DNA of 64,000 nt from Actinobacteria bacterium OK074. GTDB lineage: Bacteria; Actinomycetota; Actinomycetes; Streptomycetales; Streptomycetaceae. The position numbers were made by a program, and so were the translations under genes. Each line of letters begins with the position of its first letter. Position 1 is the first letter of the stretch. The notes under the pieces are model-generated. The model was not told the origin of the DNA, searched no databases, and saw nothing but the letters and a program-made list of their open reading frames with translations. Positions 18,733 to 63,581 of the stretch are shown in pieces. Location of the stretch: contig LJCV01000055.1 in assembly GCA_001298575.1 (NCBI GenBank), positions 1 through 64,000 on the forward strand, given 5' to 3'.

Positions 18733-18736
18733 AACA

Positions 18737-24360: not shown

Positions 24361-24471
24361 CGGCGGCCCCCTGAAAGGTCGGTGCTCGTGAGAGCGGGTA
24401 CGGATTAAAGTGCGCTCATAAGCGACCGGCGTCAAGGCTGAGGTGCGATTTCGCTGCGCTGACCGATGACA

Positions 24472-24481
24472 AAGGATACTT
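24472..24481. promoter_or_regulatory. AGT-N2-ACT-like element between livHM and the binding protein gene
   Basis: AAGGATACTT (complement AAGTATCCTT) lies in the divergent region and could control both directions. It matches the island element with one changed base in one arm. Confidence 0.5.
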
Positions 24482-24587
24482 AATATGCTCCACTGTGGCT
24501 CGCGGACGACCTGTTCGGACCGCCCGGGACCCGCCGTCGGACCGTCCGGGGACGCCGTCGGACCGGCGAAGGACGAAGGGAGCGCAG

Positions 24588-27394: not shown

Positions 27395-27419
27395 GTGTCG
27401 TCTCCTCGCGGCTCGCTTT

Positions 27420-27429
27420 GAGGGTACTC
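27420..27429 (-). promoter_or_regulatory. AGT-N2-ACT-like element ahead of the aldehyde dehydrogenase
   Basis: Read leftward, TTGAGTACCCTCAAAG overlaps the stop of the LLM oxidoreductase gene and lies 25 bases before the dehydrogenase start, which suggests a separate promoter or operator for it. Confidence 0.5.
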
Positions 27430-28435: not shown

Positions 28436-28452
28436 GAGAGCCTCCCCTAAAA

Positions 28453-28460
28453 AGTATACT
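28453..28460. promoter_or_regulatory. AGTATACT element before the LLM oxidoreductase
   Basis: The full context TAAAAAGTATACTGTTTGCG matches the copy at 34659 (on its complement) almost base for base over about 20 bases. The element ends about 17 bases before the start codon and overlaps the likely -10 region. Confidence 0.65.
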
Positions 28461-28482
28461 GTTTGCGGAGCGTACGGGAGGG

Positions 28483-29256: not shown

Positions 29257-29297
29257 CCGGCAACTCCGTTCGTCTTCTCGACATGATCGAGGTAAGT

Positions 29298-29305
29298 AGT
29301 ATACT
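29298..29305. promoter_or_regulatory. AGTATACT element between divergent genes 28483 and 29361
   Basis: On the reverse strand it reads AAAAAAGTATACTACTTACC, the same A-rich flank as the copies at 28453 and 34659. It lies midway between the two divergent start codons. Confidence 0.65.
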
Positions 29306-29360
29306 TTTTTCTGGTCTTCGGGCGTCCGGAACGGGAACAAGATCCGCGGAGGAAGCTGCG

Positions 29361-31339: not shown

Positions 31340-32368
31340 ATGAGCAGCGTCGTCGCGAACACCCCCGAGCTGGTACGGGAGTTGACGCAGCGCACGGCCG
31401 CCGTCGTGCACGGCTGGGCCCCCGGGGCCACCGTGGAAGGGGTCGAACCGCTCACCGGCGGCACGTCGAGCCTCACCTACGTGGCCGTGCTGTCGGACGT
31501 CCCGGAAGGGTACGAGCGCGTCGTCCTCAAGGTCGCGCCGCCCGGCCTGGAACCCGTCCGCAACCGGGACGTCCTGCGCCAGGCGCGGCTGATGGAGGTC
31601 CTCTCCGGACAGCGCGGCGTCCGCGTGCCGAAGGTGCTGTTCTGCGACGCGGGCGCGCCCCCGGCCGTCCAGCCGTTCGTGGCGATGGAGTTGGTGCCGG
31701 GCCAGTGCGTGGAACCGGTGCTCGTGCCGCGCGGCACCATCCCGGCGGCGCAGGTGCGCGCCCGTGGCCTCGACGCGGTCCGGATGCTCGCCCGGCTGCA
31801 CCGGGTGGACCCGAAGCGAACTCCCCTCGCGGTGGAGCCCGTTGTCACGCTCGGCGCCGAAGTCGACCGCTGGACCCGGGCGTTCACCACCGTCCCCGAC
31901 GACCTGCGCACCGGCTACGAGGCGGTCGCCGAGCGGCTGCACGCGACCCTGCCGCCCGCGATGATGCCGGTGTTCACCCACGGCGACTACCGGCTCGGCA
32001 ACACGCTGTGCGACGCGGACACCGTCAACGCGATCATCGACTGGGAGATCTGGTCGCTCGGGGACCCCCGCGTCGACATGACCTGGCTGACCTTCTTCAC
32101 CGACGAGGCCCGCCACCCGGCGTCCCCCTCCGACGAGCCGGCCGGCACCCCCAGCAAGGCGGAACTGATCGACGCCTACCAGGAGGAGCGCGGCGAGGCG
32201 CTGCGCGACCTGCCCTGGTTCGAGGCGCTGACCAAGTACAAGGAGTCCGCCGCCACCGCGCTGCTGATCAAACGCGGCCGGAAGGCGGGGGAGCTGAAGG
32301 ACATGCACCGACGGATGCTGCCCGCGCTGCCGGTGCTGCTGGACGAGGCGATGGAACTGCTGGGCTGA
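31340..32368 (+). CDS. APH-fold kinase, candidate 4-hydroxyacyl-CoA kinase
   Basis: A 342-residue aminoglycoside phosphotransferase-fold kinase. The catalytic loop is FTHGDYRLGNTL and the metal-binding Asp lies in IIDWEIWSLGDPRVDM. Close relatives are the N-terminal domains of ACAD10/ACAD11 and LvaA, which phosphorylate the 4-hydroxyl of acyl-CoAs so that a partner acyl-CoA dehydrogenase can remove it (established for those proteins). Such a partner is encoded nearby at 33303. Antibiotic resistance is an unlikely role given the context. Confidence 0.8.
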   Translation: MSSVVANTPELVRELTQRTAAVVHGWAPGATVEGVEPLTGGTSSLTYVAVLSDVPEGYERVVLKVAPPGLEPVRNRDVLRQARLMEVLSGQRGVRVPKVLFCDAGAPPAVQPFVAMELVPGQCVEPVLVPRGTIPAAQVRARGLDAVRMLARLHRVDPKRTPLAVEPVVTLGAEVDRWTRAFTTVPDDLRTGYEAVAERLHATLPPAMMPVFTHGDYRLGNTLCDADTVNAIIDWEIWSLGDPRVDMTWLTFFTDEARHPASPSDEPAGTPSKAELIDAYQEERGEALRDLPWFEALTKYKESAATALLIKRGRKAGELKDMHRRMLPALPVLLDEAMELLG

Positions 32369-34622: not shown

Positions 34623-34658
34623 CGGCTCTCCGAGAGGGTTGGCGAGTGATGGCAAAAC

Positions 34659-34666
34659 AGTATACT
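34659..34666. promoter_or_regulatory. AGTATACT element between divergent genes 33303 and 34730
   Basis: On the reverse strand the context is TAAAAAGTATACTGTTTTGC, nearly identical to the copy at 28453. It lies 37 bases from one start codon and 63 from the other. Confidence 0.65.
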
Positions 34667-34729
34667 TTTTATGGGTTGCCGGTCCATACTCGGCGTGCGG
34701 ACAGCGGAATGAGTATGAGGAGTTGGTCG

Positions 34730-38828: not shown

Positions 38829-38933
38829 CGCCGGTACCGGTTCCTGAAGCGCTCCCCACCCTTGCTTTAAGTGTCCTGAAAACGTGTGACGGTCGTCCCA
38901 GGGTGGGGAGTTGGGTCCATCGGTCTCGTAATT

Positions 38934-38943
38934 GAGTGTACTC
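38934..38943. promoter_or_regulatory. AGT-N2-ACT element ahead of the ligase-MaoC unit
   Basis: GAGTGTACTC in the context AATTGAGTGTACTCTGTAGG has symmetric 4-base arms. It lies 90 bases before the ligase start and shares its 10-base core with the copy at 46427. Confidence 0.6.
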
Positions 38944-39032
38944 TGTAGGCGGGACGATGCAGTGATCTTGTGAGACCGAGACCGACTCCGTCCTCGCCGA
39001 GCAGGTGCTCGGCCTTCCGAAAGGCTGATCAC

Positions 39033-40544: not shown

Positions 40545-41833
40545 CCAGCGCCCAGGAACAAGCACAGCAGCACGCCCAGCAGCAACCGGGCAAGCCCGCC
40601 GAGCAGTTCGGCGTGCTCACCGACGAGGCCGTCGAACGCTCCCGCCGCCGCCTCGGCGTCCCCGAGCCGCAGCGCAACCCGCCGCACAACTACGAGGTCA
40701 CCTGGGACGGCGCCCGCCACTTCGCGTACGGCTACGGCGACCGCAACCCCCTGTACTGCGACCCCGACTACGCGGCCAAGACCCGCTGGGGCTCCCTCCT
40801 GGCCCCGCCCACGTTCCTCTACACGATGGGCGAGGACGCCGCCCCGCCGCCGGACGCCGAGACCAAGGCGCTGCTCAAGGGCGACCCCTTCGCCGGACTC
40901 GGCTCCTACCAGGCGGTGATGGAGTACGAGTGGTGGCGGCCCCTCCAACTCGGCGACCGCTGCCGGGTGTTGCAGGCCCAGGTGGGCGTCCACCTCAAAC
41001 GCAGCAGCTTCGGCGGACGCACCGCCCACGTCGTGCGCGACTACCTCTACGCCAACGGCCGCGGCGAGATGCACGCCCTGCGCCGCGGCACCTGGATCAA
41101 CGCCGAACGCCACACGTCGAAGAAGCGCGCCAAGGAACACCACGAGCCCGAGCCCTACACCGCCGCCCAACTCGCCGAGATCGACGCGGCCTACGCCGCC
41201 GAGACCCGGCGTGGCGCGCAGCCGCGCTACTGGGAGGACGTCGAGGTCGGCGAGGAACTCCAGCCCCGGGTCAAGGGCCCGCTGACCACCACGGACGTCG
41301 TCGTGTGGCACCTGGGCTGGGGCATGCAGCTCACCCCGCCCGGCGCGTTCGGCATCGCCGCCGCCGTCCGCCGCAAGGCCCCCGGGCTGTATCCGCCCAA
41401 CGCGCTGAACATCCCCGACACCGTGCAGCGCCTGCACTGGGAACCCGAACGGGCCCGGGAACTGGGCCTGCCGGGGCCCTACGACTACGGCGGCATGCGC
41501 GAGACCTGGCTGTGCCATCTGCTCACCGACTGGATCGGCGACGACGGCTGGCTGTGGAAACTCCGCTGCGAGCACCGGAAGTTCAACTACATGGGCGACA
41601 CCACCTGGGTGCGCGGCACGGTCACCGGCAAACGGCTGGTGGACGGCCGCGCCGAGGTCGACGTCGAGGTCAGGTGCGAGAACCAGCGGGGCGAGGTCAC
41701 CACGCCCGGCACGGCCGTCGTCCTGCTGCCGACCCGGGAGCACGCCGTCGAACTGCCCGCACCGCCCGCCGCGGACCTGGACGGCATGGTGGCCCACGAA
41801 CTCGCCCGGTTCCAGGTGACCGAGGCGGATTGA
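40541..41833 (+). CDS. MaoC-type double hot-dog hydratase
   Basis: A 430-residue protein with a FAS1-like dehydratase domain in the first half (HNYEVTWDGARHFAYGYGDRNPLYCD, residues about 45-190) and a second hot-dog/MaoC-like half (RYWEDVEVGEELQPRVKGPL, residues about 225-400). It probably hydrates a bulky enoyl-CoA. The N-terminus is Gln-rich (QEQAQQHAQQQPGKPAEQ), as a flexible tail. AAGGAGG precedes ATG 40541, which overlaps the ligase stop. Confidence 0.8.
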   Translation: MTSAQEQAQQHAQQQPGKPAEQFGVLTDEAVERSRRRLGVPEPQRNPPHNYEVTWDGARHFAYGYGDRNPLYCDPDYAAKTRWGSLLAPPTFLYTMGEDAAPPPDAETKALLKGDPFAGLGSYQAVMEYEWWRPLQLGDRCRVLQAQVGVHLKRSSFGGRTAHVVRDYLYANGRGEMHALRRGTWINAERHTSKKRAKEHHEPEPYTAAQLAEIDAAYAAETRRGAQPRYWEDVEVGEELQPRVKGPLTTTDVVVWHLGWGMQLTPPGAFGIAAAVRRKAPGLYPPNALNIPDTVQRLHWEPERARELGLPGPYDYGGMRETWLCHLLTDWIGDDGWLWKLRCEHRKFNYMGDTTWVRGTVTGKRLVDGRAEVDVEVRCENQRGEVTTPGTAVVLLPTREHAVELPAPPAADLDGMVAHELARFQVTEAD

Positions 41834-41841
41834 GTGCACTG
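41832..41841. promoter_or_regulatory. AGT-N2-ACT element ahead of the crotonase gene 41883
   Basis: GAGTGCACTG in the context TTGAGTGCACTGTTCTA overlaps the MaoC-type hydratase stop codon. It could allow separate control of the crotonase downstream. Confidence 0.5.
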
Positions 41842-41882
41842 TTCTACCGCATATGAGCTGTAGGCGCTGCCGAGGAGGAGAA

Positions 41883-42647: not shown

Positions 42648-42668
42648 CGGCGCCGTACAGGCGCGAAT

Positions 42669-42678
42669 AGGTATACGC
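42669..42678. promoter_or_regulatory. GTATAC element ahead of the racemase gene
   Basis: AATAGGTATACGCAATAAGG resembles the complement of the copy at 48155 over its GTATACG-AAT core. It lies about 50 bases upstream of the racemase start. Confidence 0.5.
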
Positions 42679-42725
42679 AATAAGGGGCGGGGGACTCCGC
42701 CCACGGACGACCAGGGAGGGCGACG

Positions 42726-46389: not shown

Positions 46390-46436
46390 CACATCTGAAT
46401 ACATCTGACACACGCATCGCGAAAATGAGTGTACTC
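46390..46436. promoter_or_regulatory. Divergent control region with an AGT-N2-ACT element and a direct repeat
   Basis: GAGTGTACTC at 46427-46436 is the clearest symmetric copy after 38934. Just to its left, ACATCTGA occurs twice (46391 and 46401, period 10), one helical turn apart. The region separates the acyl-CoA dehydrogenase and tandem GntR regulator genes, so autoregulation is plausible. Confidence 0.6.
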
Positions 46437-46547
46437 TATACTCCGAATGCGGATGCCTCGTTCCTCGTTCGGTGCTCGAATCGCCCGCCCCCGCCCGGGG
46501 GGTGAATAGACTGGGGATCCGCAATAGCCCCCCAGAGGAGTTGGCCC

Positions 46548-48050
46548 ATGGCGACTGCCGTCGACCGCGAGCCCGCCGACGGCGAGCCCGAGTCCGACTT
46601 CGCCGCCGTCGCCGACAACGGCATGCCCGTCGGCAAGCTGGCCGCGCAGACCGCCCAGCGCATCGAGGCCAGCGTGATCCGCCAGGGCTGGCCCGTCGGC
46701 GAGTCGCTCGGCTCCGAGGTGGACCTCCGCGAACGCCTCGGGGTGAGCCGCGCGGTCCTGCGCGAGGCGGTACGGCTGGTCGAGCACCACCGGGTCGCCC
46801 GCATGCGCCGCGGCCCCAACGGCGGCCTGATCGTCTGCGCCCCGGACGCGGGCCCGGCCACCCGGGCCATGGTGATCTACCTCGAATACGTCGGCACCAG
46901 CGTCACCGACCTGCTCCAGGCCCGCCTCCTGCTCGAACCGATCGCCGCGGGACTGGCCGCGGAGCGGATCACCGAGGAGGGCATCGCCACCCTCCGCGCC
47001 ACGCTGGAGAGCGAGATCGTCCACTGGGACGACCCGGGTGTCGGCTCGCAGGACCCGCTGCACCCGGTGCTCGGGCAGCTCTCGGGCAACCCGGTGCTGC
47101 ACCTGTTCGTGGACGTGCTCACCCGCCTGACCGCACGGTACGCGCACACCTCCCGCCGTATCTCCAAGGCCGAGATGCACGCGGCGATGGAGACGTCGCA
47201 CAGCGCGCACAAGGCCGTCGTCGACGCCGTGATCTCCGACGACGGCGCGCGCGCCCAGACCGCGCTCACCGCGCACCTGGAGTCGGTGGCCGGCTGGATC
47301 GAGAAGCACCGGGTCCGCCGCGGCCAGCGCATCGCGGGCAACGTGATCGAACCCGAACTCGTCGAGGGCCCCCGGGCCAAGCTCGCCGAGGTGGTCGCCG
47401 CCCGCATCCACGACGACATCGCCGCCCGCGGCTGGCAGATCGGCATGGTGCTCGGCTCCGAGACCGACCTGCTCGCCCGTTACGGCATCAGCCGGGCCGT
47501 GCTGCGCGAAGCCGTACGGCTGCTGGAGTACCACTCGGTCGCCCGGATGCGCCGGGGCCCCGGCGGCGGCCTGGTCGTCACCGCGCCCGAGGCGCAGGCC
47601 AGCGTCGACACGATGGCGCTGTTCCTCGAATACCAGGGCGTCACCGCCGACGACCTGCGCACCGTCCGCAACGCCATCGAGCTCGGCATCGTCGCCCGGG
47701 TCACCGCCCGGCACGCGGCGGGCGACAAGGCGGTGGCCGAGCGGCTCGCCAAGGCGGTCCGCTGGAGCACCGCGGGCCCGGCCGAGGACCAGCGCAAGGC
47801 CGACCTGTTCCACTCCGAACTGGCCGCGCTCGCCGACAATCCGGTGCTGACGCTGTTCCTCGCCATCCTCACCGAACTCTTCCGCCGCCACGCGGCCGGC
47901 CGCGACCGGCCGCTGCCCGGCGACGCCGCGGCCGACCAGGTCCAGCACGTCCACCAGCGGATCCTGGACGCGATCCTCCAGCAGGACGCCGGGGTCGCCC
48001 GGCACCGGATGCGCCGCCACCTGGACGCCCTCATGCCGTGGTGGCACTGA
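46548..48050 (+). CDS. Tandem-duplicated GntR/FadR-type regulator
   Basis: A 500-residue regulator containing two complete FadR-like units in one chain. The winged-helix recognition segment is GVSRAVLREAVRLVEHHRVA in unit 1 (about residue 65) and GISRAVLREAVRLLEYHSVA in unit 2 (about residue 313), a period of about 248 residues. Each is followed by its own all-helical ligand domain. Ordinary FadR-type proteins have one unit (about 240 residues) and dimerise, so this is effectively a built-in dimer. FadR-subfamily operators often contain GT-N(x)-AC, which fits the AGT-N2-ACT element of this island. AGAGGAG precedes ATG 46548. Confidence 0.88.
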   Translation: MATAVDREPADGEPESDFAAVADNGMPVGKLAAQTAQRIEASVIRQGWPVGESLGSEVDLRERLGVSRAVLREAVRLVEHHRVARMRRGPNGGLIVCAPDAGPATRAMVIYLEYVGTSVTDLLQARLLLEPIAAGLAAERITEEGIATLRATLESEIVHWDDPGVGSQDPLHPVLGQLSGNPVLHLFVDVLTRLTARYAHTSRRISKAEMHAAMETSHSAHKAVVDAVISDDGARAQTALTAHLESVAGWIEKHRVRRGQRIAGNVIEPELVEGPRAKLAEVVAARIHDDIAARGWQIGMVLGSETDLLARYGISRAVLREAVRLLEYHSVARMRRGPGGGLVVTAPEAQASVDTMALFLEYQGVTADDLRTVRNAIELGIVARVTARHAAGDKAVAERLAKAVRWSTAGPAEDQRKADLFHSELAALADNPVLTLFLAILTELFRRHAAGRDRPLPGDAAADQVQHVHQRILDAILQQDAGVARHRMRRHLDALMPWWH

Positions 48051-48096
48051 GCCGGACGGCAGCTCCCGCCGACGGATTCAGTGAACTGATTCAGAG

Positions 48097-48127: not shown

Positions 48128-48154
48128 TTCTTCTGTGCCTGGCGAGGATAATTA

Positions 48155-48162
48155 CGTATACT
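48155..48162. promoter_or_regulatory. CGTATACT element before the acyl-CoA dehydrogenase gene 48190
   Basis: AATTACGTATACTGAATAGG. TATACT can serve as a -10 box, 27 bases before the start codon, so a regulator bound here would block the promoter. Confidence 0.55.
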
Positions 48163-48189
48163 GAATAGGGTCGAGTCGAAGGAGATCCG

Positions 48190-52429: not shown

Positions 52430-53293
52430 TCAGAACGACGGCAGCTGCGGGCGCTTGCGCACGTACCCGCCGGCGTCCACCCGCATCTGCAGACCCGTCA
52501 CATAGCGGGACTCGTCGGAGACCAGGAACAGCACCGTGTCGGCGACGTCCTCCGGCTCGACATAGGGGATACCGAAACCGGTGGTCGCGGGGAAGGACAA
52601 CAGGGCGTCCTCGCGCGTCGGCCGGTCCAGGTCGGGCCGGAACGAGCGGTACATCAGGTCGCTGTTGAGCATGCCCGTGTTGACGTTGGTCGGGTGCACC
52701 GCGTTGACCCGGATCTGCCGGGACAGCATCACGGTCGCCAAGTCGTGCACGAACGCGGCCACTTGCCGCTTGGCGAACGAATAGCCCAGCCCGCCGGGCC
52801 CGTTGGCCGGGTTGTCGACGGTCGCCGGGGTCAGCGCGGCGATCGACCCGGTCGCCACGATCGAGGCCCCGTCGGACAGGTGCGGCAGCGCGGCGTCGAC
52901 GGCGTTGACGACACCGACGTAGTCCACCGTGACCGCGTCCAGGAACGCCTGCACACCGCGGTCGGGCCCCAGCGGCGCGATCCCGGCCTGGGCCACCACC
53001 GCGTCCAGGCGCCCGAGTTCGGCCACGCCCTCCGCCACGATCGCCTTCAGCGCCGCGGGGTCGCGCACGTCGGCCCTGCGGGCGACGATGCGCCGGCCGG
53101 TCTTCTCGACCTGCCGGACGGTCTCGTCCAGGTCGTCCGGGGTGGCCAGCGGGTAGCCGTTGGTGGCGATGTCCTCGCAGAGGTCGACGGCGATGATGTC
53201 GGCGCCCTCCGTCGCGAGCCGGACCGCGTGGGCGCGGCCCTGTCCCCGTGCGGCTCCCGTGATGAAGACGACCTTGTCCTGCACTCGACCCAT
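52430..53293 (-). CDS. Mycofactocin-coupled SDR oxidoreductase
   Basis: A 287-residue SDR with the marks of the mycofactocin-dependent SDR family (TIGR03971-like): the start MGRVQDKVVFITGAARGQGR, the ADIIAVDLCEDI segment after beta-2, an enlarged active-site region (ANGPGGLGYSFAKRQVAAFV) and SRYVTGLQMRVDAGG near the end. In this family the nicotinamide is bound without exchange and mycofactocin re-oxidises it (established for members such as carveol dehydrogenase). The substrate could be a hydroxysteroid or terpenoid alcohol. ATG 53293 follows GAAGGAG. Confidence 0.87.
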   Translation of the reverse strand: MGRVQDKVVFITGAARGQGRAHAVRLATEGADIIAVDLCEDIATNGYPLATPDDLDETVRQVEKTGRRIVARRADVRDPAALKAIVAEGVAELGRLDAVVAQAGIAPLGPDRGVQAFLDAVTVDYVGVVNAVDAALPHLSDGASIVATGSIAALTPATVDNPANGPGGLGYSFAKRQVAAFVHDLATVMLSRQIRVNAVHPTNVNTGMLNSDLMYRSFRPDLDRPTREDALLSFPATTGFGIPYVEPEDVADTVLFLVSDESRYVTGLQMRVDAGGYVRKRPQLPSF

Positions 53294-53317
53294 GGGGTCT
53301 CCTTCCGCCACAGAAAA

Positions 53318-53327
53318 GAGTAGCCTG
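53318..53327. promoter_or_regulatory. AGT-N2-CCT variant between divergent genes 52430 and 53471
   Basis: AAGAGTAGCCTGAATACTTG resembles the island element with one arm changed. On the reverse strand TACTCT could be the -10 of the SDR gene. Confidence 0.4.
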
Positions 53328-53470
53328 AATACTTGTCGATGGAACCGCTCGCACCCCATGATCCGCATGGATTCGTCCCGTCCGGTGTCCGACTTCCACT
53401 GAGCGGGACCGGATCAGTGCACACAATGCGGCCGGTGCTAGAGATTCTCTGAGATCAAGGGAGACCAACG

Positions 53471-54616: not shown

Positions 54617-54891
54617 GCCGGCGTCCGGAGTCCGAGCGGTCCGACTGGACCGATCTGGACCTGCTGACCCGCGAGGAGGCCCACGGCCGCCTGGTCGAGG
54701 AGATCGCCGCGTCCGAGGCACGGCTGGCGGAACTCGGCGCGGCCGACGGCGCCGAACGCGACCTCCTCGACTCCCGGCTGCGCGCCCTGCGCGAGGCGGC
54801 CGAGGACCTGATCCCCGGCGTCCCCGGAGTCCCCGGTGTCCTCGGCATCCCTGGCGACACGACGAACAGGGATGCGCATGGGACGAGTTGA
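54613..54891 (+). CDS. Small charged helical protein overlapping both neighbours
   Basis: A 92-residue protein whose ATG overlaps the amidohydrolase stop and whose end overlaps the SDR start by 14 bases. Residues about 18-68 are acidic and helical (SDWTDLDLLTREEAHGRLVE, then LLDSRLRALREAAEDL), likely a coiled coil. The tail is a Gly/Pro/Val repeat (GVPGVPGVLGIPG). No family recognised. The tight overlaps suggest it is translated and may bind or stabilise one of its neighbours. Confidence 0.6.
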   Translation: MSRRPESERSDWTDLDLLTREEAHGRLVEEIAASEARLAELGAADGAERDLLDSRLRALREAAEDLIPGVPGVPGVLGIPGDTTNRDAHGTS

Positions 54892-55690
54892 GGGCAAGGT
54901 CGCGCTGATCACCGGGGCGGCCCGCGGCCAGGGCCGCTCGCACGCCGTCCGGCTGGCGGAGGAGGGCGCGGACGTCGTGATCACCGACGTCTGCCACGAC
55001 ATCAGCGACGAACTGCCGTACTCGCTGGGCACGAAGGAACAGCTGGAGGAGACGGCCGAGCTGGTGCGGGCCACCGGCCGCCGGTGTGTCGCCCTCCAGG
55101 GCGACGTGCGCTCGGTGAGCGACATGCGGGCCGCCGTCGACGCCGCCCGCACGGAGTTCGGCCGGCTCGACACGGTCGTGGCCAACGCCGGTGTCATGAG
55201 CATCGGCTCCGGCTGGGAACTGTCCGAGGAGGCGTGGGACGTCGTCATGGACGTCAACCTCAAGGGCGTCTGGAACACCACGCGGGCCGCGATCCCCTGG
55301 CTGATCGAGGCCGGGGAGGGCGGGTCGATCGTCATCATCTGCTCGGCCGCCGGCATCCGCGGCCATGTGCCGTTCGCCCACTACGTGGCCAGCAAGCACG
55401 GTGTGGTCGGCCTGATGAAGGCCCTGTCCAACGAACTGGCCCCGCACCGCATCCGGGTGAACACCGTCCACCCGACCATGGTCAGCGACACCGGGATCAC
55501 GGTCGGCGTGCCGCTGGAGGAACTCAAGGCGCGCGAGCCGCTGTTCGCCCTCGTCGAACTGAGCCCGCTGGCCCCGTTCGTCGAGCCCCGGGACATCTCC
55601 AACGCGGTCCTGTTCCTCGCCTCGGACGAGGCCCGGTACGTCACCGGCCTCCAGTTCACCGTCGACGCGGGCTCGACGAACAAGCCGTGA
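54878..55690 (+). CDS. Mycofactocin-coupled SDR oxidoreductase
   Basis: A 270-residue SDR with the same family marks as the one encoded at 52430: MGRVEGKVALITGAARGQGR, VVITDVCHDI, VNTVHPTMVSDT and ARYVTGLQFTVDAGS. The active Ser, Tyr and Lys lie in IICSAAGIRG and FAHYVASKHG. It probably oxidises an alcohol with a non-exchanging NAD that mycofactocin regenerates. ATG 54878 was chosen; an ATG six bases upstream is possible. It is followed by the ferredoxin gene. Confidence 0.86.
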   Translation: MGRVEGKVALITGAARGQGRSHAVRLAEEGADVVITDVCHDISDELPYSLGTKEQLEETAELVRATGRRCVALQGDVRSVSDMRAAVDAARTEFGRLDTVVANAGVMSIGSGWELSEEAWDVVMDVNLKGVWNTTRAAIPWLIEAGEGGSIVIICSAAGIRGHVPFAHYVASKHGVVGLMKALSNELAPHRIRVNTVHPTMVSDTGITVGVPLEELKAREPLFALVELSPLAPFVEPRDISNAVLFLASDEARYVTGLQFTVDAGSTNKP

Positions 55691-55986: not shown

Positions 55987-56865
55987 TCAGGAAGCGGCCG
56001 GCGGCTGCGGCGGCGGGGTGAAGTGGTGGCCCCAGAACGCGCCGTCGGTGATCTCGTAGACCGGGACCGGCTCGGGCACCTGGAGGCCGTTCCAGCCGAA
56101 CTCGACGGCGTAGTTCTCCGGCGACCACACGTAGAACGACACCATGCGGTCGTTGGTGTGCTTGCCGAGCGAGTGCATCATCGGGACCTCGAGCTTCGCC
56201 GCCCGGTCCAGGGCGCGCCCGACGTCGTCCAGCGTCTCCGCCTCGACCATGAAGTGCAGCAGCCGCCCGGGGCCCGGCGCCGGGGTGACGCCCAGGGTGT
56301 GGTGGCGGGGGTTGCAGCCCATGAACCACGTGGTGCCGCCGGGGGAGCGCATGGTGTTGCGCTCGATGAACCCGAGGACGTTCACGTAGAAGTCGAACGT
56401 GCCGCGCGCGTCCTCGGCGGAGACGATGGCGTGCCCGAAGCCCATGTCACCGGTGAGGAACTTCGACACCAGCGGGGTGAGCACCGGCACGTGGTCGAGA
56501 ACGGTGCCGTAGAAGAGCTCGACCGGGTTGCCGCCCGGGTCGTTGAACTTGACGAAGCCGGTGACCCTGCGGGCCACGGCCTCGGCCTCGGTGCCGGCGG
56601 TCACCTTGATGCCGTACTTCTCGACGTCCGCGACCAGCTTGGCCAGTTCGCGCTCGTCGATGACCTCGAAACCGAGCGCCGTCATCCCGTTCTGGGCGCC
56701 CGGAGAGATCACGATGCGGGCCGGGTAGTCGTCCATGCGGAACGACAGCGATTCCGGATCGGCCCCTTCGACCGGCATCAGCCCGAGGAAATCGGCCCCG
56801 AAGACCTTCCATTTGTCGAGGTCGGTGGATTCCAGCCGCAAATACCCGAGTGAGCGCACACCCAT
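55987..56865 (-). CDS. hsaC: Two-domain extradiol ring-cleavage dioxygenase (HsaC type)
   Basis: A 292-residue type I extradiol dioxygenase. The three iron ligands are His145 (GFGHAIV), His204 (LLHFMVE) and Glu255 (NYAVEFGW), close to BphC and HsaC numbering, and a catalytic His lies in NPRHHTLGV. The enzyme opens a catechol ring next to its hydroxyls; HsaC acts on 3,4-DHSA from steroid rings. ATG 56865 with GGAGAA upstream was preferred to a TTG four codons earlier. The hydrolase gene for the next step lies divergent at 57144. Confidence 0.85.
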   Translation of the reverse strand: MGVRSLGYLRLESTDLDKWKVFGADFLGLMPVEGADPESLSFRMDDYPARIVISPGAQNGMTALGFEVIDERELAKLVADVEKYGIKVTAGTEAEAVARRVTGFVKFNDPGGNPVELFYGTVLDHVPVLTPLVSKFLTGDMGFGHAIVSAEDARGTFDFYVNVLGFIERNTMRSPGGTTWFMGCNPRHHTLGVTPAPGPGRLLHFMVEAETLDDVGRALDRAAKLEVPMMHSLGKHTNDRMVSFYVWSPENYAVEFGWNGLQVPEPVPVYEITDGAFWGHHFTPPPQPPAAS

Positions 56866-57143
56866 CAGGTTCTCCAATCAACGATCGTCAGGTCCGGCGG
56901 CCTGGGCCCCGGAAAGCGCGATACGGCCGACGGTAGGCACAGCGGAACGTCCGCCGCCGCCACCGTCCCACTGATCGGGAGACGTACGGCCCCGCCCTCC
57001 TGCTGGGTGGGACGGTGACCGGAGCGGGACCGGGCCGCGGGGCAGGATCGGACCAGCGGGACGGCAACGGGTGGGGGCGCCGCGTCCACCGCCCGGTCCG
57101 CCGGGCCCGCTGGTTATCCATCGACCGGAGGTCACGCACAGCC
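56866..57143. promoter_or_regulatory. Divergent promoter region of the hsaC and hsaD-type genes
   Basis: About 280 bases without a gene. GACGATCGTTGAT (reverse strand, near 56877-56889) resembles CTGATCGTTCAT at 60639 and CTGATCGTCCGT (reverse, near 60722), so a shared regulator of the ring-cleavage genes is possible. The AGT-N2-ACT element is not seen. Confidence 0.35.
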
Positions 57144-58013
57144 ATGACACCCACTGCACTCAGCTACGAGGACACCCTGCGCGAACTGCCCACCGACGAG
57201 GGGGTGTTGCGCTACCACGAGGCGGGCGACGGCCCCCCGCTGCTGCTTCTGCACGGCTCGGGGCCCGGCGTGACCGGCTGGCGCAACTACCGGGGCAACC
57301 TGCCCGTGTTCGCCCGCCACTTCCGCTGCCTGGCCCTGGAGTTCCCCGGCTTCGGCGTGAGCGACCCGACCGACGAGAGCCCGATGGCGGCGGGCCCCAA
57401 GGCCGTGCTGCGCTTCCTCGACGGCCTCGGGCTCGACAAGGTCGACGTCATCGGCAACTCCATGGGCGGATTCGTCGCGGTGGGGCTCGCCGTCGCCAAC
57501 AAGGACCTCTTCCGCCGGATCGTCACGATCGGCGGCGTGGGCCGCAACATCCTCTCCCCGGCGCCCAGCGAGGGCCTGAACCTGTTGGTGGAGTTCGCCG
57601 AGAACCCGACCCGGGAGAACCTGGTGCAGTGGCTGCGGGCCATGGTCCACGACCAGGCCCTGGTGACCGAGGAACTGGTCGAGGAGCGCTGGCAGACCGC
57701 GACCGAGCCGGCCACCCTGGAGGCGCTGCGCCGCATCTCCGGCCGCAAGGCCATGGCGGCGACCATCGCCGCCCAGGCCCACTCCGACCAGCCCATCTGG
57801 GCCGCACTTCACAAGATCACCGCACCCACCTTGCTAACCTGGGGCCGGGACGACCGGGTCACGCCCCTGGAGAGCGCGCTGCTGCCGATGCGCACCATCC
57901 CGAAGGCCGAGCTCCACGTCCTGCCGGACTGCGGGCACTGGGCGATGATCGAGCAGAAAGAGGCTTGGGAGAGCGCGGTCCTCGCCTTCCTGACCCGCCC
58001 CGAGTCCGCCTGA
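57144..58013 (+). CDS. hsaD: Meta-cleavage product hydrolase (HsaD type)
   Basis: A 289-residue alpha/beta hydrolase. The triad is Ser106 in VIGNSMGGF, Asp236 in WGRDDRVTP and His265 in PDCGHWAM; the oxyanion region is LLHGSGPGVTGW. It hydrolyses the C-C bond of the ring-opened product, as BphD and HsaD do. The ATG is preceded by CGGAGG at a somewhat long distance. A KstR-like TetR regulator gene follows. Confidence 0.85.
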   Translation: MTPTALSYEDTLRELPTDEGVLRYHEAGDGPPLLLLHGSGPGVTGWRNYRGNLPVFARHFRCLALEFPGFGVSDPTDESPMAAGPKAVLRFLDGLGLDKVDVIGNSMGGFVAVGLAVANKDLFRRIVTIGGVGRNILSPAPSEGLNLLVEFAENPTRENLVQWLRAMVHDQALVTEELVEERWQTATEPATLEALRRISGRKAMAATIAAQAHSDQPIWAALHKITAPTLLTWGRDDRVTPLESALLPMRTIPKAELHVLPDCGHWAMIEQKEAWESAVLAFLTRPESA

Positions 58014-58087
58014 GTCCCGGTGCCGGACTTAGGACGGCGGCGACGGCGGCGGCACGGACGGACCTGGACGAGCGGGGGGACGACGAC

Positions 58088-58687
58088 GTGGCCAGACCCC
58101 TTCGAGCACGGCAGCCCGCGGCTCCGGTGTCGAGCCGTCAGCTCGCCCGCCGGGTCGGCATCCTGCGGGCCGCCTCCGAACTCGGCGCGCGCGAGGGCCT
58201 CGCCAGGGTGCAGATGCACGACGTGGCCAAGGAGGCCGGGGTCGCCATCGGCACGCTGTACCGCTACTTCCCGTCCAAGCCGTACCTGTTCATGGCGGTC
58301 CTGGAGTGGCACATCGAGCAGTTCCTCGGCGACCGGGCGGGCGCCGGGGAGCGCGCCGACCCGGTCGAGGAGGTGGCGCAGACCCTCGTCGCGCTGAGCG
58401 GGAAGCTGCTCGAACACCCGCTGCTCGCCTCGGCGGTGGCGCTGTCCTCGTTCGCCGAGTACGCCAGTGCCGTCCCGGCCCGGATCGACATCGTCGAGAG
58501 CGCCCTGGGCCAGGCCATCCTCGGGCTGCTCGGGGTCCGGGACGTCGGCGAGACGGAGCGCAGCAGGGTACGGCTGCTGGTCTACGGCTGGTGGGGCGTG
58601 TTCGTCGCCGTGCTCACCGAGGAGATCTCCACCGAACAGGCGGAACGGGACCTGCGGCTGGCGGCCCGGCTGATCCTCACACCGTGA
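58088..58687 (+). CDS. TetR-family regulator resembling KstR
   Basis: A 199-residue TetR protein. The DNA-binding domain (VGILRAASELGAREGLARVQ, then VAKEAGVAIGTLYRYFPSKP) resembles the mycobacterial cholesterol repressor KstR (VQMRAVADRADVAVGTLYRYFPSK, from memory). It sits between the hsaD-type and kstD-type genes, so it probably controls the ring-degradation block in response to a CoA thioester or steroid ligand. GTG 58088 follows GGGGGGA at about eight bases. The known KstR palindrome was not noticed by eye near the target genes, so its site may differ. Confidence 0.82.
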   Translation: MARPLRARQPAAPVSSRQLARRVGILRAASELGAREGLARVQMHDVAKEAGVAIGTLYRYFPSKPYLFMAVLEWHIEQFLGDRAGAGERADPVEEVAQTLVALSGKLLEHPLLASAVALSSFAEYASAVPARIDIVESALGQAILGLLGVRDVGETERSRVRLLVYGWWGVFVAVLTEEISTEQAERDLRLAARLILTP

Positions 58688-58691
58688 CGTG

Positions 58692-58738
58692 ACGGGTCCG
58701 GCTGCCCACCCCCTTCCGGGGCGGGCAGCCGGACCCGT
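58692..58738. terminator. Bidirectional hairpin between TetR and kstD-type genes
   Basis: ACGGGTCCGGCTGCCC and its exact complement (16 bases) around a 15-base loop. Confidence 0.75.
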
Positions 58739-58757
58739 GCTCGTACCGTCGTCCGCG

Positions 58758-60362
58758 TCAGTCCTTCGCCCCGGCGATGTCCAGCACCGCCAGGTACGAG
58801 AAGGCCGTGCTCGAACCGATCGGGGTCCCCGCGCCCGGGTACACCCGGCCCGACATCGCCGCCGCCGTGTTCCCGGCCGCGTACAGCCCCGCGATCGGGC
58901 TGCCGTCCGGGCGCAGCACGCGCGCGTGCTCGTCGATCTTCAGGCCGCCCTTGGTGCCGATGTCGGCGGGCAGGATGGTCGCCACGTAGTACGGCGGCGT
59001 GTCCAGCGGCATCAGCAGCGGGTTGGGCCAGTCCGGCGTGGGCGGCGCCGGGTAGTTCAGCTCGGGCAGGCCGGGGTAGCCCAGCACGTGGTAGGCGATC
59101 TGGTCCCAGGGCGTCTCACCGCGGTGGAACCTCTCGTCCACCCCGGAGGCCGCGTAGCCGTTGAACTCCTCGACGGTGGCGCGCAGGGCGTCGAGCGGGA
59201 CGTCGATCAGCTCCGCCAACTCCTCCAGGGTGTCGGCCTTCTTCAGCGCGCCCGACTCGAACCACTCGGGCCGCACCGGCTGGTCGTACGGGCCGCCGAA
59301 GCTGTCCCGGTCGAGCTGGCGCTGGTCGAATATCCAGTGGGCGGGGACGTGCGAGACCCCCGTGGTGGTGTGCAGGCGGACGATCTCGTGCCCGGCCTGG
59401 TCGTAGGGGCGGGCCTCGTTGATGAAGCGTTCGCCCGCGCCGTTGACCCAGATCCCGCCGCGCGTGCCGGTGTGGAAGAGCGGCAGACCGTCCGGCCACA
59501 CCAGGCCCGGTGTGTACCACGCCTCGTCGAGCAGGTCGGTGGCGGCGCCGATCGCGATGCCCGCCTGGAGCGCGTCGCCGGTGTTGCCCGGGGCGCCGTG
59601 CGTCCACTCGACGACCTGGGGGAACGGCTGGTACTTCTCCCGCAGTTCACGGTTGCGCTCGAAGCCGCCGGCGGCGAGGAGCACGCCGCCCGGGGCCCGC
59701 AGCGTGACCCGTTCGCCGTCGCTGACCGCCTCCACGCCGACGACCCTGCCGTCCTCGACCACGAGGCTCTCCAGCGCGGTGTTGAGGCGGAGAGCGCCGT
59801 TGCCGGTCTCCAGGAACGCCTTCAGCGCCCTGCCGATCAGCGCGCGGCCACCGCTCAGGACGGGGCCCTCGTCGTGGCCCCACCGCTCGGTGGGCAGGCA
59901 GCGGCGCACCAGCCGGGCGTGTTCGCCGAGTTCGTCGACGGCGACCGGCGGCGGGAAGATGCTGTGCCCCGCGGGGGAGGCGCCGGGGGCCGAGTCGTAG
60001 TACTCCGGCACGGGACCGTACTGGAACGACTGGAACAGGGGGTTCTTCTCGAGTTCGTCGATCAGCTCGGCGCCGGCCCGGAGGTAGGCGTCCTGGAGCG
60101 GCTCGCGGGAACTGTCGTCGACGATGCCGCGCAGATACGTCCTGGCGGTCTCCACGTCGTTCTCGACGCCGGCCCGGCCCACGGGCGCGGAGCCCGGGAA
60201 CCAGAGCCCCGCACCGGAGTAGGCGGTCGTGCCGCCCACCAGGTCGGTCTTCTCGATGACGAGCGTGCGCAGGCCGCGCGACGCCGCCACGTAGGCCCCT
60301 ACCAGGCCGCCGCCGCCCGATCCGACGATGACGACGTCGTAGGCGTCCTCGTTGATGGTCAT
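58758..60362 (-). CDS. kstD: 3-ketosteroid dehydrogenase-type flavoprotein
   Basis: A 534-residue FAD enzyme of the fumarate reductase/KstD fold. The dinucleotide motif is VVIVGSGGGGLVGAYVAA; PEYYDSAPGASPAGHS and PPYYVATILPADIGTKGG match the KstD active-site Tyr and Tyr/Gly regions, and GLYAAGNTAAAMSGRVYPGA the FAD C-terminal segment. KstD introduces the C1-C2 double bond that leads to ring opening; a related 4-dehydrogenase (Kst4D) is an alternative. ATG 60362 has GAGGGAG upstream. Divergence from hsaE-hsaG-hsaF repeats the mycobacterial gene order. Confidence 0.82.
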   Translation of the reverse strand: MTINEDAYDVVIVGSGGGGLVGAYVAASRGLRTLVIEKTDLVGGTTAYSGAGLWFPGSAPVGRAGVENDVETARTYLRGIVDDSSREPLQDAYLRAGAELIDELEKNPLFQSFQYGPVPEYYDSAPGASPAGHSIFPPPVAVDELGEHARLVRRCLPTERWGHDEGPVLSGGRALIGRALKAFLETGNGALRLNTALESLVVEDGRVVGVEAVSDGERVTLRAPGGVLLAAGGFERNRELREKYQPFPQVVEWTHGAPGNTGDALQAGIAIGAATDLLDEAWYTPGLVWPDGLPLFHTGTRGGIWVNGAGERFINEARPYDQAGHEIVRLHTTTGVSHVPAHWIFDQRQLDRDSFGGPYDQPVRPEWFESGALKKADTLEELAELIDVPLDALRATVEEFNGYAASGVDERFHRGETPWDQIAYHVLGYPGLPELNYPAPPTPDWPNPLLMPLDTPPYYVATILPADIGTKGGLKIDEHARVLRPDGSPIAGLYAAGNTAAAMSGRVYPGAGTPIGSSTAFSYLAVLDIAGAKD

Positions 60363-60760
60363 GATGAAAACTCCCTCTGAGTGCCGACCTCTTGTGGTGG
60401 GGGGATTCCGATCACGGGTGGGGGAAACCGCCACAGGCACGGACACCCGGTCCGGGAGACCGTCACGGCCGCGCGCACCGGCGAGGAGCCCCCGCACCGG
60501 ACGGCGCCGGCACCGGGAGGCTCCGCGCACGGAGGTGGCGGGCCGGCCGGGACGTCCCACGGTCCCGGCCGGCCGCGGCGAAGTCGCCACCAGCCGTTCA
60601 GCAGTTAGCCGCCGACGGTAATGAGGGGTGACACCCCGGCTGATCGTTCATCTCGCTGAGCGAGACCCGCGTTCTGGCCCAGTCCCGGTGAGCGGAACGT
60701 ACGGCACCGCCGCCCGGTACGGACGATCAGGCTGGAGTCCGGCACGAGTTGAGGATGCAG
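60363..60760. promoter_or_regulatory. Divergent intergenic region between kstD and hsaE
   Basis: About 400 bases without a credible gene. Its kstD-proximal half is GC-rich with imperfect CCGGCCGG palindromes. The hsaE-proximal half carries CTGATCGTTCAT at 60639 and, on the reverse strand near 60722, CTGATCGTCCGT, plus a TCGCTGAGCGA palindrome at 60653-60663. These are candidate operators. Confidence 0.4.
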
Positions 60761-61591
60761 ATGACAGACGTCAGGAAACCGACGGGCACCGCGGACCGCG
60801 AGGAGGCCGTCGCCGAGGCGGCCGCCCGGCTGGCCCGCGCCGCCCGCGAGCACAAGCCGTGCGCGCCCGTACGGGACCTGCTCGGCTCCCGTGACATCGG
60901 CCTCGCCTACGCCGTCCAGCAGCACGTGATCGGTGACCGGATCGCGGCCGGGGCCCGGGTCGTCGGCCGCAAGATCGGCCTGACCTCGCCGTCCGTGCAG
61001 CGGCAAGTGGGCGTCGACCGGCCCGACTTCGGGGTGCTCCTCGACGACATGGACGTCACCGGACTGCCCGCCGTGCCCAGCGGACGGCTGCTCCAGCCCA
61101 AGGTCGAGGCGGAGATCGCCTTCGTGCTCGCCGCCGACCTCGACCACGCCGACCTCGACCTGGCGACGGTCCGGGCCGCGGTCGGGCACGCGGTGGCCGC
61201 GCTGGAGATCGTGGACAGCCGGGTGGCCGACTGGGACATCGCGATCACCGACACGGTCGCCGACAACGCCTCCGGCGGCCTGTTCGTCCTGGGCCAACAG
61301 CGGCGCACGCTCAAGGAGTTCGAGCCGCGGGAGGTGACGATGCAGTTGTACGCGGACGGGAAGCTCGCCTCCGCGGGCGACGGCGCCGCCTGCCTCGGCG
61401 ACCCGCTCGCCGCCCTGCTCTGGCTGGCGCGCACCGCCCGCGAGTTCGGCGATCCGCTGCGCGCGGGCCAGGTCGTGCTCTCCGGCGCGCTCGGCCCGCT
61501 GGTCCCCACCCCGCCAGGAACCACCGTACGGGCCGAGATGTCCGGCCTCGGCACGGTGGCAGCGACCTTCTCACCCAAGGACCGAGGATGA
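60761..61591 (+). CDS. hsaE: 2-hydroxypenta-2,4-dienoate hydratase (HsaE type)
   Basis: A 276-residue member of the MhpD/HsaE hydratase family. Characteristic segments are [36 protein letters not shown] (metal-binding Glu residues) and [17 protein letters not shown]. It hydrates the dienoate released by HsaD to 4-hydroxy-2-oxoacid. ATG 60761 with GAGGA five bases upstream was chosen among three clustered in-frame starts. The stop overlaps hsaG by four bases. Confidence 0.88.
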
Positions 61592-62568
61592 CGAAGACCA
61601 AGGTGGCCGTAATCGGCTCCGGCAACATCGGCACCGACCTGATGTTCAAGGTGCTGCGCCTGTCCGACACCCTGGAGATGGCCGCGATGGTGGGCATCGA
61701 CCCGGACTCGGACGGGCTGGCCCGCGCCGCCCGCCTGAAGATCCCCACGACCCACGAGGGCGTCGAAGGACTGATCCGCATGGACGGCTTCGACGACATC
61801 GCCATCGTCTTCGACGCCACCTCCGCCAAGGCCCACGTCGAGAACGCCAAGCGCCTCGCCCCCTACGGCAAACACCTGGTCGACCTCACCCCGGCGGCCA
61901 TCGGCCCCTACGTGGTGCCCCCGGTGAACCTGGACGAGCACCTGGTCGGCGACGCCGGCGGTGTCGGGGATGCCGTCAACCTCAACCTGGTCACCTGCGG
62001 CGGCCAGGCCACCATCCCCATCGTGCACGCGGTCAGCCGGATCACCCCGGTGCCGTACGCCGAGATCGTCGCCTCCATCGCCTCCAAGTCGGCCGGACCC
62101 GGCACCCGGGCCAACATCGACGAGTTCACCGAGACCACCTCCGCCGCGATCGAGAAGGTGGGCGGCGCCCGGCGCGGCAAGGCCATCATCGTGCTCAACC
62201 CGGCCGAACCGCCCCTGATCATGCGGGACACGGTGTACTGCCTGATCGGCGACGCGGACCACGAGGCGATCCGCGCCTCCGTCACTCAGATGGTGGCCGC
62301 GGTCGCCGAGTACGTGCCCGGCTACCGGCTCAAGCAACAAGTGCAGTTCACGCCGCTCGACGACGGCGCCCCCGTACACACCCTGCTGACCGGCGGCGCG
62401 GAGGGCGAGGTCACCACGAAGGTGTCCGTCTTCCTCGAAGTCGAGGGCGCCGCCCACTACCTGCCCGCCTACGCCGGCAACCTCGACATCATGACCTCGG
62501 CCGCCCTGCGGGTGGCCGAGCGGGTCGCCGAGCGTCTGTCCGCCCCGGCCGCCGAGGTGACCAAGTGA
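61588..62568 (+). CDS. hsaG: Acylating acetaldehyde/propionaldehyde dehydrogenase (HsaG type)
   Basis: A 326-residue acylating aldehyde dehydrogenase. The NAD motif is [16 protein letters not shown] and the catalytic Cys lies in [15 protein letters not shown]. It forms a channelling complex with the aldolase, converting the released aldehyde to acetyl- or propionyl-CoA. ATGA overlaps join it to hsaE before and hsaF after. Confidence 0.92.
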
Positions 62569-63581
62569 CCACCACCCCCACGCAGTTGTACGTCCAGGAC
62601 GTCACCCTCCGGGACGGCATGCACGCCATCCGGCACCGGATCACCCCCGAGAGCGTGACCGCCATCTGCACGGCCCTGGACCGGGCCGGGGTCGACGCCA
62701 TCGAGGTCGCGCACGGCGACGGCCTCGCGGGCGGCAGCCTCAACTACGGCCCCGGCAGCAACACCGACTGGGAGTGGATCGAGGCCGCCGCCGACGCCAT
62801 CGACCGCGCGGTCCTCACCTCCCTGCTCCTGCCCGGCATCGGCACCATCGCCGAACTCAAGCAGGCGTACGCCCTCGGGGTCCGCTCGGTGCGCATCGCC
62901 ACCCACTGCACCGAGGCGGACGTGGCCGCGCAGCACATCGCCACCGCCCGCGAACTCGGCATGGACGTCTCCGGGTTCCTGATGATGGCCCACATGGCCG
63001 AACCCGCCGAACTCGCCCGCCAGGCAGGGCTGATGGAGTCCTACGGCGCGCACTGCGTGTACGTCACCGACTCCGGCGGCCGGCTCACCATGACCGGCGT
63101 ACGCGACCGGGTGCGCGCCTACCGGGACACGCTGGATGCGGGGACCCAGATCGGCATCCACGCGCACGAGAACCTCTCCCTGTCGGTGGCCAACTCGGTG
63201 GTCGCGGTCGAGGAGGGCGTGACCCGGGTCGACGCCTCCCTCGCCGGGCAGGGCGCGGGTGCCGGCAACTGCCCGATCGAGCCGTTCATCGCGGTGGCCA
63301 ACCTCTACGGCTGGAAGCACGACTGCGACCTCTTCGCGCTCCAGGACGCCGCCGAGGACCTGGTCCGCCCGCTCCAGGACCGCCCGGTGCGCGTGGACCG
63401 CGAAACCCTCACCCTCGGGTACGCCGGCGCCTACTCCAGCTTCCTGCGCCACGCGGAGACGGCGGCCCAGCAGTACGGCCTGGACGCGCGCACCATCCTC
63501 CAGGAGGTCGGCAGGCGCGGACTGGTCGGCGGCCAGGAGGACATGATCGTGGACATCGCCCTCGACCTCACCCACGGCTGA
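62565..63581 (+). CDS. hsaF: 4-hydroxy-2-oxovalerate aldolase (HsaF type)
   Basis: A 338-residue class II aldolase of the BphI/HsaF family. [20 protein letters not shown] opens the TIM barrel with the metal Asp and the catalytic Arg-Asp pair, and [15 protein letters not shown] holds the metal His residues. It splits 4-hydroxy-2-oxoacids to pyruvate and an aldehyde passed to HsaG. It ends the hsaE-G-F operon before a strong terminator. Confidence 0.93.

Follow-up and report, generated by a model that had tools for sequence, protein, structure and literature searches.

We consider it likely that the gene at 46548-48050 of the window (the whole 64,000-nucleotide stretch of DNA from Actinobacteria bacterium OK074 analysed here) encodes a regulator of a steroid-type acyl catabolism cluster, one that acts locally, also on its own gene, and probably as a repressor, and that this protein belongs to an old actinomycete lineage in which a GntR regulator of the FadR/FCD subfamily was duplicated and fused once.

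The gene is a complete open reading frame on the + strand, which starts with ATG and codes for 500 amino acids. Its codon GC pattern (0.78/0.48/0.96) is the one expected of a genuine gene. Pfam gives the domain order GntR-FCD-GntR-FCD, i.e. the GntR winged helix (PF00392) is present twice in the chain and an FCD domain (PF07729) follows each copy. When the halves were analysed separately, both domains exceeded their gathering cut-offs (27 bits for GntR and 24.3 bits for FCD) in the N half (29.7 and 72.9 bits, respectively) as well as in the C half (35.4 and 48.5 bits). The two halves align over 230 residues with 40% identity (E 2e-45), the internal repeat has a period of 248 residues (S67/S315), and the recognition regions, SRAVLREAVRLVEHHRVARMRRGPNGG and SRAVLREAVRLLEYHSVARMRRGPGGG, are almost identical. 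The description in the earlier note, two full units repeating at about 248 residues with near-identical recognition helices, is thus borne out. A search of the own genome returned 13 places at E 0.001 or better, the regulator gene itself included, and the best of the other matches reached 74.3 bits and 31% identity; the doubled regulator is without a close paralogue in this genome. Its parts are as follows.

46548-48050, + strand: doubled GntR/FCD regulator gene, 500 amino acids (open reading frame, Pfam, internal alignment).
46629-46835, + strand: N-terminal winged helix, residues 28-96, recognition helix 68-80 (Pfam; secondary structure of the model).
46908-47297, + strand: N-terminal FCD ligand domain, residues 121-250, with H172, H221, H243, R126 and E130 (Pfam, alignment, model).
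47298-47381, + strand: linker between the units, residues 251-278, with pLDDT <50 at 260-265 (alignment, model).
47382-47579, + strand: C-terminal winged helix, residues 279-344, recognition helix 316-328 (Pfam, model).
47646-48041, + strand: C-terminal FCD ligand domain, residues 367-498, with H422, H469, H491, R374 and E378 (Pfam, alignment, model).

Regulators of the large bacterial GntR family are usually described as homodimers of single-unit chains, and single-unit FadR/FCD chains pair up as dimers. AlphaFold2 modelled the whole 500-residue chain with a pLDDT of 87.6 and a pTM of 0.87, and the latter value suggests that two units of about 240 residues are held in a fixed mutual arrangement. 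The covalent pseudo-dimer proposed in the earlier note stands as the simplest reading of this single-chain model, which cannot separate an intramolecular pseudo-dimer from a domain-swapped one. A structure search with the model matched single GntR/FCD chains (e.g. 6az6, 2di3, NanR and DhdR), and no chain covering both halves was among the matches listed.

The double architecture is no accident of one genome; sought elsewhere, as the earlier note had advised, it was found in many actinomycetes. We observed matches in 3 of 150 genomes of the window's family at E 1e-60, and at E 1e-45 in 11 of 391 genomes at the order level (10 doubled and 1 single-unit) and in 19 of 394 at the class level, where the own genome is included each time and the three samples overlap. 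A scan of named genomes confirmed 318 relatives, and the best 80 of these all span both halves. They come from ten named genera (Streptomyces, Nocardia, Pseudonocardia, Amycolatopsis, Saccharopolyspora, Actinophytocola, Thermomonospora, Actinomadura, Modestobacter, and Mycobacterium including Mycolicibacterium) and from two Streptosporangiaceae MAG loci. A motif script recovered the protein in 77 of these 80 loci (it missed L096, L099 and L100) and two motifs in 76, L080 having one motif. Two plasmid records also matched, those of Streptomyces sp. NBC_00080 (88%) and of Rhodococcus jostii RHA1 pRHL2 (44.5%). On the latter, about 14 kb away from the doubled regulator, a gene that adjoins an acetyl-CoA acetyltransferase encodes another FCD-domain protein (L139 1-1018); for this record the plasmid search gave two places. 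In family f20 (taken for Frankia) a single, longer frame contains both halves, and the linker is enlarged; L034, L039 and other doubled members of this family carry long inserts of low complexity, located in the linker or in the FCD domain of the C unit. The G715 contig, which is the same contig as that of Thermomonospora echinospora L092, carries three different doubled regulators (L020, L038 and L045) within about 28 kb, of which L045 is very diverged.

We built a tree from 37 N and 37 C halves (those of the window, 27 of the 80 named loci and 9 others) together with 8 single-unit proteins. All 37 N halves fell into one clade (98/80) and 36 of the 37 C halves into another (98/96), the remaining C half, that of L045, being on a long unresolved branch. 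As the N and C halves form two clades, the tree argues for one ancient duplication, and the doubled form appears to be an old, conserved lineage. The single-unit L019/L162 stands beside the N clade (98/90) on a long branch; its single unit may be an ancestral or a reduced state. Two annotated records of the doubled regulator are labelled 'GntR family' or 'FCD domain-containing'. We found no description of a doubled GntR/FCD regulator among the open-licence titles and abstracts listed, which are a partial set, and none of the six words searched occurs in a survey of GntR regulators in M. smegmatis (PMC2018728).

The palindrome AGT-N2-ACT was seen 10 times in the window, where 2.9 copies are expected, and 0 of 100 shuffles reached 10. 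Between the window and seven orthologues from the same genus (Streptomyces), the DNA upstream of the regulator has diverged except for two islands; the first, ATGAGKNYACTYYA, holds AGT-N2-ACT, and the second is a block ending at the ribosome-binding site. Whole-locus palindrome counts were uninformative because coding DNA dominates them (in Streptomyces AGT-N2-ACT was not enriched, with 13 seen against 21.8 expected, rank 40 of 64), and we restricted the count to intergenic DNA. With this restriction, AGT-N2-ACT was the top-ranking one of 64 palindromes for the 12 loci of Nocardia, the 28 of Mycobacterium, the 5 of Actinomadura and the 7 of the remaining genera; it came second for the 17 Streptomyces loci and 38th for the 11 Pseudonocardia loci. 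The bare 8-mer showed no more than a roughly twofold difference, with 11.1 copies per 100 kb in the Mycobacterium regulator loci as against 5.5 in random loci of one such genome. It is part of a longer palindrome, the Mycobacterium form of which is about CAATACAGTACACTCTATTG. We also considered the element as a mere -10 box, as some copies contain TATACT; this is contradicted by copies like AGTGTACT and AGTACACT, as well as by a symmetry that reaches out to 20 bp. GT-N2-AC is a known operator spacing of the FadR subfamily, whose operators are GT-N2/3-AC palindromes according to PMC4494728.

For a cross-genus test, a symmetric 20-bp matrix was trained on 17 distinct Mycobacterium sites (consensus about SNAWWVAGTRYACTBWWTNS) and used with a score threshold of 12. 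In the window it found 15 sites, all 15 centred in called intergenic DNA (gene starts being GC-frame calls), and 0 of 200 permuted matrices reached the observed count in the window, Streptomyces, Nocardia, Pseudonocardia or Actinomadura. Sites numbered 58 in 17 Streptomyces regulator loci (360 kb; 16 of the 17 positive), 31 in 12 Nocardia loci (9 positive), 18 in 11 Pseudonocardia loci (6 positive), 10 in 5 Actinomadura loci (all positive) and 17 in 7 loci of other genera (all positive). A site scoring at least 12 was therefore present in 43 of the 52 named loci outside Mycobacterium and lacking in 9, it being understood that the loci were chosen by the regulator, which makes the co-occurrence conditional, and that many Streptomyces and Mycobacterium loci are near-copies. 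Random 20-kb loci had 1 site in 200 kb (1 of 10 loci) in G345, a genome of the window's genus, and 3 sites in 200 kb (2 of 10 loci) in G772 (family f6, taken for Mycobacterium). Called intergenic DNA, 9.2% of the sequence, contained 120 of the 134 non-training sites. In 57 of the 80 loci, 28 of them from the training genus, a site lay in the interval from 1.7 kb upstream to 0.4 kb downstream of the regulator; none of the 5 Actinomadura loci had a site next to it, and in the stretches read around the doubled members L051, L054, L055 and L058 the matrix gave nothing at score 12. On R. jostii pRHL2 a site begins 47 bp upstream of the doubled regulator gene. The G345 locus (L046), with a 91% identical regulator, has no AGT-N2-ACT 8-mer, and the matrix finds the variants AGGGTACT and CGTATACT there; the strict 8-mer core is too narrow. 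The 15 predicted operators in the window, given without strand, are listed below with their matrix scores.

18732-18751, predicted operator: score 12.4; 75 bp from 18807-18826, at divergent acyl-CoA dehydrogenase and thiolase genes.
18807-18826, predicted operator: score 17.4; promoter region of the same divergent acyl-CoA dehydrogenase and thiolase genes.
24403-24422, predicted operator: score 13.7; 64 bp from 24467-24486, upstream of the permease gene 22411-24360(-).
24467-24486, predicted operator: score 12.8; promoter region of the permease gene 22411-24360(-).
27415-27434, predicted operator: score 15.7; upstream of the aldehyde dehydrogenase gene 25916-27394(-), sharing 7 bases with the end of the next gene.
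28447-28466, predicted operator: score 28.5; upstream of the luciferase-like monooxygenase gene 27428-28435(-).
29292-29311, predicted operator: score 21.0; upstream of an enoyl-CoA hydratase gene (-), with ORF 29373 and the AMP-ligase gene 29764(+) on its other side.
34653-34672, predicted operator: score 29.2; between divergent acyl-CoA dehydrogenase (-) and CoA-transferase III (+) genes.
38929-38948, predicted operator: score 24.3; upstream of the AMP-ligase gene 38970/39033.
41827-41846, predicted operator: score 18.7; upstream of an enoyl-CoA hydratase gene, sharing 7 bases with the end of the previous gene.
42664-42683, predicted weak operator: score 13.0; upstream of a CoA-transferase III gene.
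46422-46441, predicted operator: score 28.9; separates the regulator gene from a divergent acyl-CoA dehydrogenase gene (46336 taken as start; in-frame ATG also at 46417), and forms a conserved island in the alignment of the window with 7 Streptomyces orthologues.
48074-48093, predicted operator: score 17.6; 75 bp from 48149-48168, upstream of the acyl-CoA dehydrogenase gene 48190.
48149-48168, predicted operator: score 23.3; upstream of the acyl-CoA dehydrogenase gene 48190.
53313-53332, predicted operator: score 17.4; upstream of a mycofactocin-coupled SDR gene (-), whose start is taken at 53284, where the family match begins, and not at the first ATG of the ORF, 53368; the gene at 53471 on the other side had no NCBIfam match at E 1e-20.

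The genes bordered by these predicted operators encode acyl-CoA dehydrogenases, AMP-ligases, CoA-transferases III, enoyl-CoA hydratases, a thiolase, an aldehyde dehydrogenase, a luciferase-like monooxygenase, a permease and a mycofactocin-coupled SDR. Further downstream there are HsaC-, HsaD- and KstD-like genes, for which the NCBIfam models do not reach their cut-offs, together with a pair of genes for an acetaldehyde dehydrogenase and an aldolase, for which both models pass. Because of the Hsa/KstD-like genes and of the acyl-catabolic genes at the operators, the substrate of the cluster is likely to be a steroid or steroid-like. The block 55990-63578, with the HsaC-, HsaD- and KstD-like genes, the dehydrogenase/aldolase pair and a TetR gene at 58127-58684 (77.5 bits with the KstR model, cut-off 280), has no matrix site at score 12, the last site being at 53.3 kb, and is probably a second, separately regulated block. 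The SDR enzymes at 52433-53368 and 54836-55687 score 326.9 and 358.8 bits with the mycofactocin-coupled model (cut-off 300). The plasmid of Streptomyces NBC_00080, on which the gene order is very similar to that of the window's cluster, carries mftA-mftF. Within the catabolic cluster, one AMP-ligase gene is immediately followed by a gene for an APH-family phosphotransferase (31340-32365).

Several operators come in close pairs. We collected the non-redundant pairs in which both sites score at least 12 and which are 25-200 bp apart (n=15), and found spacings of 53, 63, 64, 75 (four times), 86, 96, 106, 107, 116, 141, 151 and 165 bp. These cluster in phase at 10.6 bp (R 0.71, p 0.0004). With larger sets of 21 and 31 pairs, which admit a weaker second site, 0 of 5000 trials reached the phase clustering, and after hand-thinning to one pair per genus and distance it persisted (n=13, R 0.67, p 0.0018). 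The best-fitting period in the range 8-14 bp was 10.95-11.0 bp, slightly long for B-DNA. Of the hand-thinned pairs, those up to 120 bp gave R 0.94 (n=10), this cut having been made after seeing the data, and spacings of 128, 141, 151 and 165 bp fit the helical phase poorly. The steps of about one DNA turn between close pairs suggest that two bound molecules touch on one face of the DNA. Helically phased pairs 53-116 bp apart would also be expected if two chains paired N-with-N and C-with-C into a four-headed complex holding two palindromes, a built-in DNA bridge; the same two assemblies were weighed for the double TetR protein Mce3R by its authors (PMC11667970). We consider such a bridge unlikely, however. 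In the window, 9 of the 15 sites (e.g. 34653, 38929 and 46422) have no neighbouring site within 200 bp, a distance of about 2.7 kb separates the two sites usual in Mycobacterium, and the single-unit L162, which is unable to bridge in this manner, also has a phased pair (107 bp). The high pTM for one chain likewise favours the intramolecular pseudo-dimer, the form that Mce3R itself proved to have (PMC11667970).

We scanned whole genomes with the consensus AWNNAGTRYACTNNWTT, allowing one mismatch, and used the reversed pattern as control. The own genome (10.7 Mb) has 9 distinct places of this relaxed consensus, 7 of them in the regulator's cluster. Elsewhere, 2 of 5 places in G772 and 2 of 7 in G807 were within about 4 kb upstream of the regulator, 7 of 10 in G409 were in the regulator's 45-kb region, 2 of 4 in G345 within 22 kb and both in G730 within 10 kb of the regulator, 1 of 2 in G715 beside a regulator copy, and 3 of 6 in G276 within 6 kb of the single-unit gene. 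In six Streptomyces genomes that lack the regulator, the scattered places number 0, 2, 1, 1, 0 and 1. The pattern was in clear excess over the reversed control in the own genome (6+8 versus 1+2) and in G409 (9+6 versus 4+2), and in lesser excess in G345 (1+4 versus 2+1) and G772 (2+5 versus 1+2). Its counts were no higher than those of the control in G807, G276, G730 and G715, where it appears to be the position, not the number, that is telling.

The single-unit relative L162 (G276, 247 amino acids, Streptomyces) shows 44.2% identity with the N half and 42.7% with the C half. It has the same recognition motif as the doubled regulator and four matrix sites in 20 kb, three of which are no more than about 150 bp away from its gene. 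A distant doubled relative, L198 (G730, 37% identity), likewise has four sites in 20 kb. The single-unit members L194-L197 of family f20, which have an altered recognition region, showed 0, 0, 0 and 1 site; this agrees with expectation, but is weak evidence since their clusters differ; at the single-unit L193, with a similar recognition region, there was no matrix site. The operator element thus seems mostly to follow the recognition helix, doubled or not. It is mainly for this reason that we attribute the reading of AGT-N2-ACT to the GntR protein and not to a neighbour, and as the single-unit relative is included, the doubled chain would stand in for a homodimer.

It is very improbable that the element is the operator of another regulator, e.g. 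the TetR at 58127-58684, with the GntR protein sharing the neighbourhood only. This TetR is indeed weakly KstR-like and lies in the cluster, and co-occurrence is conditional on loci fetched by the GntR protein; but the matrix sites end before the TetR gene and none adjoins it, the element follows the GntR lineage elsewhere (single-unit L162, doubled L198, R. jostii pRHL2), the six Streptomyces genomes without the regulator have the scattered places counted above, and GT-N2-AC is a GntR operator type (PMC4494728). The doubled GntR protein is very probably the reader and by far the best candidate, as the earlier note had guessed, and on this the Mycobacterium-trained matrix, the position in the genome and the single-unit relative agree.

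Next we consider the state of the two units, using an alignment of 43 sequences (the window and 42 of the best 80 named loci, picked to spread genera). The mean column entropy was 0.70 (N) versus 0.64 bits (C) for the winged helices, 1.39 versus 1.36 bits for the FCD domains and 2.26 bits for the linker. The histidine triads, H172/H221/H243 in the N half and H422/H469/H491 in the C half, were each kept in 43, 43 and 42 of the 43 sequences, and Arg126/Glu130 and Arg374/Glu378 in all 43. Both halves therefore possess the triad of metal-type FCD domains, which we take to be metal ligands. In FCD structures an acidic residue is expected four positions before the first His; the residue three positions before it is D or E in 41 of 43 N halves and 31 of 43 C halves. 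Both halves appear to be under equal constraint, and the second half, whose possible loss of function the earlier note had raised, looks intact. That the C unit is a decaying duplicate and the N unit alone works, as an ordinary homodimer, can hardly be credited, for although the C unit has the lower FCD score (48.5 against 72.9 bits) and a less constant acidic residue, it is as well conserved as the N unit in both domains, keeps its triad, and appears to have been retained since one ancient duplication.

The FadR-type, acyl-CoA-binding ligand domain assumed in the earlier note is not supported. Each half carries an FCD domain, no model of the FadR_C acyl-CoA domain was matched at E 0.001 (Pfam), and the NCBIfam FadR model TIGR02812 gave 26.5 bits against a cut-off of 249.2.

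The mechanism that we propose is the following. One polypeptide would fold as an intramolecular pseudo-dimer, the two near-identical recognition helices of which would read the two half-sites of one palindrome. Binding at 12 intergenic regions between 18.7 and 53.3 kb would silence both the pathway genes and the regulator's own gene. The regulator would be released by a carboxylate of the pathway (the free acid rather than the acyl-CoA), for which the probable binding place, shared with a metal, is the His triads of the FCD domains; that the regulator represses, and that an acid of the pathway relieves repression, is suggested by analogy with the subfamily. More tentatively, palindromes 53-116 bp apart would face the same side of the helix, and two molecules might cooperate or loop the DNA. 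It is possible, although we rather doubt it, that the two pockets, which have been separate ever since the single ancient duplication, respond to two different acids of the pathway and make a two-input gate on one palindrome, the phased operator pairs letting two chains loop the promoter; both pockets keep the same His triad and the same Arg/Glu pair. Were this two-input pseudo-dimer reading true, the fusion would guard against mixing with the cell's other GntR paralogues.

A fused GntR form in many actinomycetes, including many mycobacteria, is thus at hand together with a predicted operator and target promoters, and this operator helps to annotate otherwise unassigned steroid-type catabolic clusters. 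The natural single-unit relative around the same operator makes the reason for the fusion testable; candidate reasons are two inputs, insulation from paralogues or stoichiometry, in parallel to Mce3R among the TetR proteins.

KstR and KstR2 are TetR regulators of steroid catabolism in actinomycetes; they are like the doubled regulator in the control of steroid-type acyl catabolism, but differ in family and operator. Proteins of the FadR/FCD subfamily (CGL2915 2di3, NanR 6on4, DhdR 9jpj and S. agalactiae GntR 6az6) have the same winged helix and FCD domain, and share the GT-N2/3-AC palindrome as operator type with the operator predicted here. They are single-unit chains, whereas the present regulator has two units in one 500-residue chain instead of one unit per chain as a homodimer, and therefore we file it as a variant of the GntR FadR/FCD subfamily, not as an ordinary member. 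L162 has the recognition motif and operator of the doubled regulator, but is not duplicated. The closest precedent is Mce3R, the double TetR repressor of Mycobacterium tuberculosis, which is an intramolecular dimer on an asymmetric operator present in two copies separated by 53 bp (PMC11667970). The two systems have in common two regulator units fused in one chain, a one-chain intramolecular dimer and autoregulation (both predicted here), a connection with lipid or sterol metabolism, and two operator copies at one promoter. Mce3R has the TetR fold, non-identical HTHs, an asymmetric operator and one ligand domain, in contrast to the GntR/FCD fold, near-identical recognition helices, palindromic operator and two complete ligand domains of the doubled regulator, both units of which, being GntR/FCD, place it outside the double TetR subfamily. 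By analogy, the doubled family would be the GntR counterpart of Mce3R.
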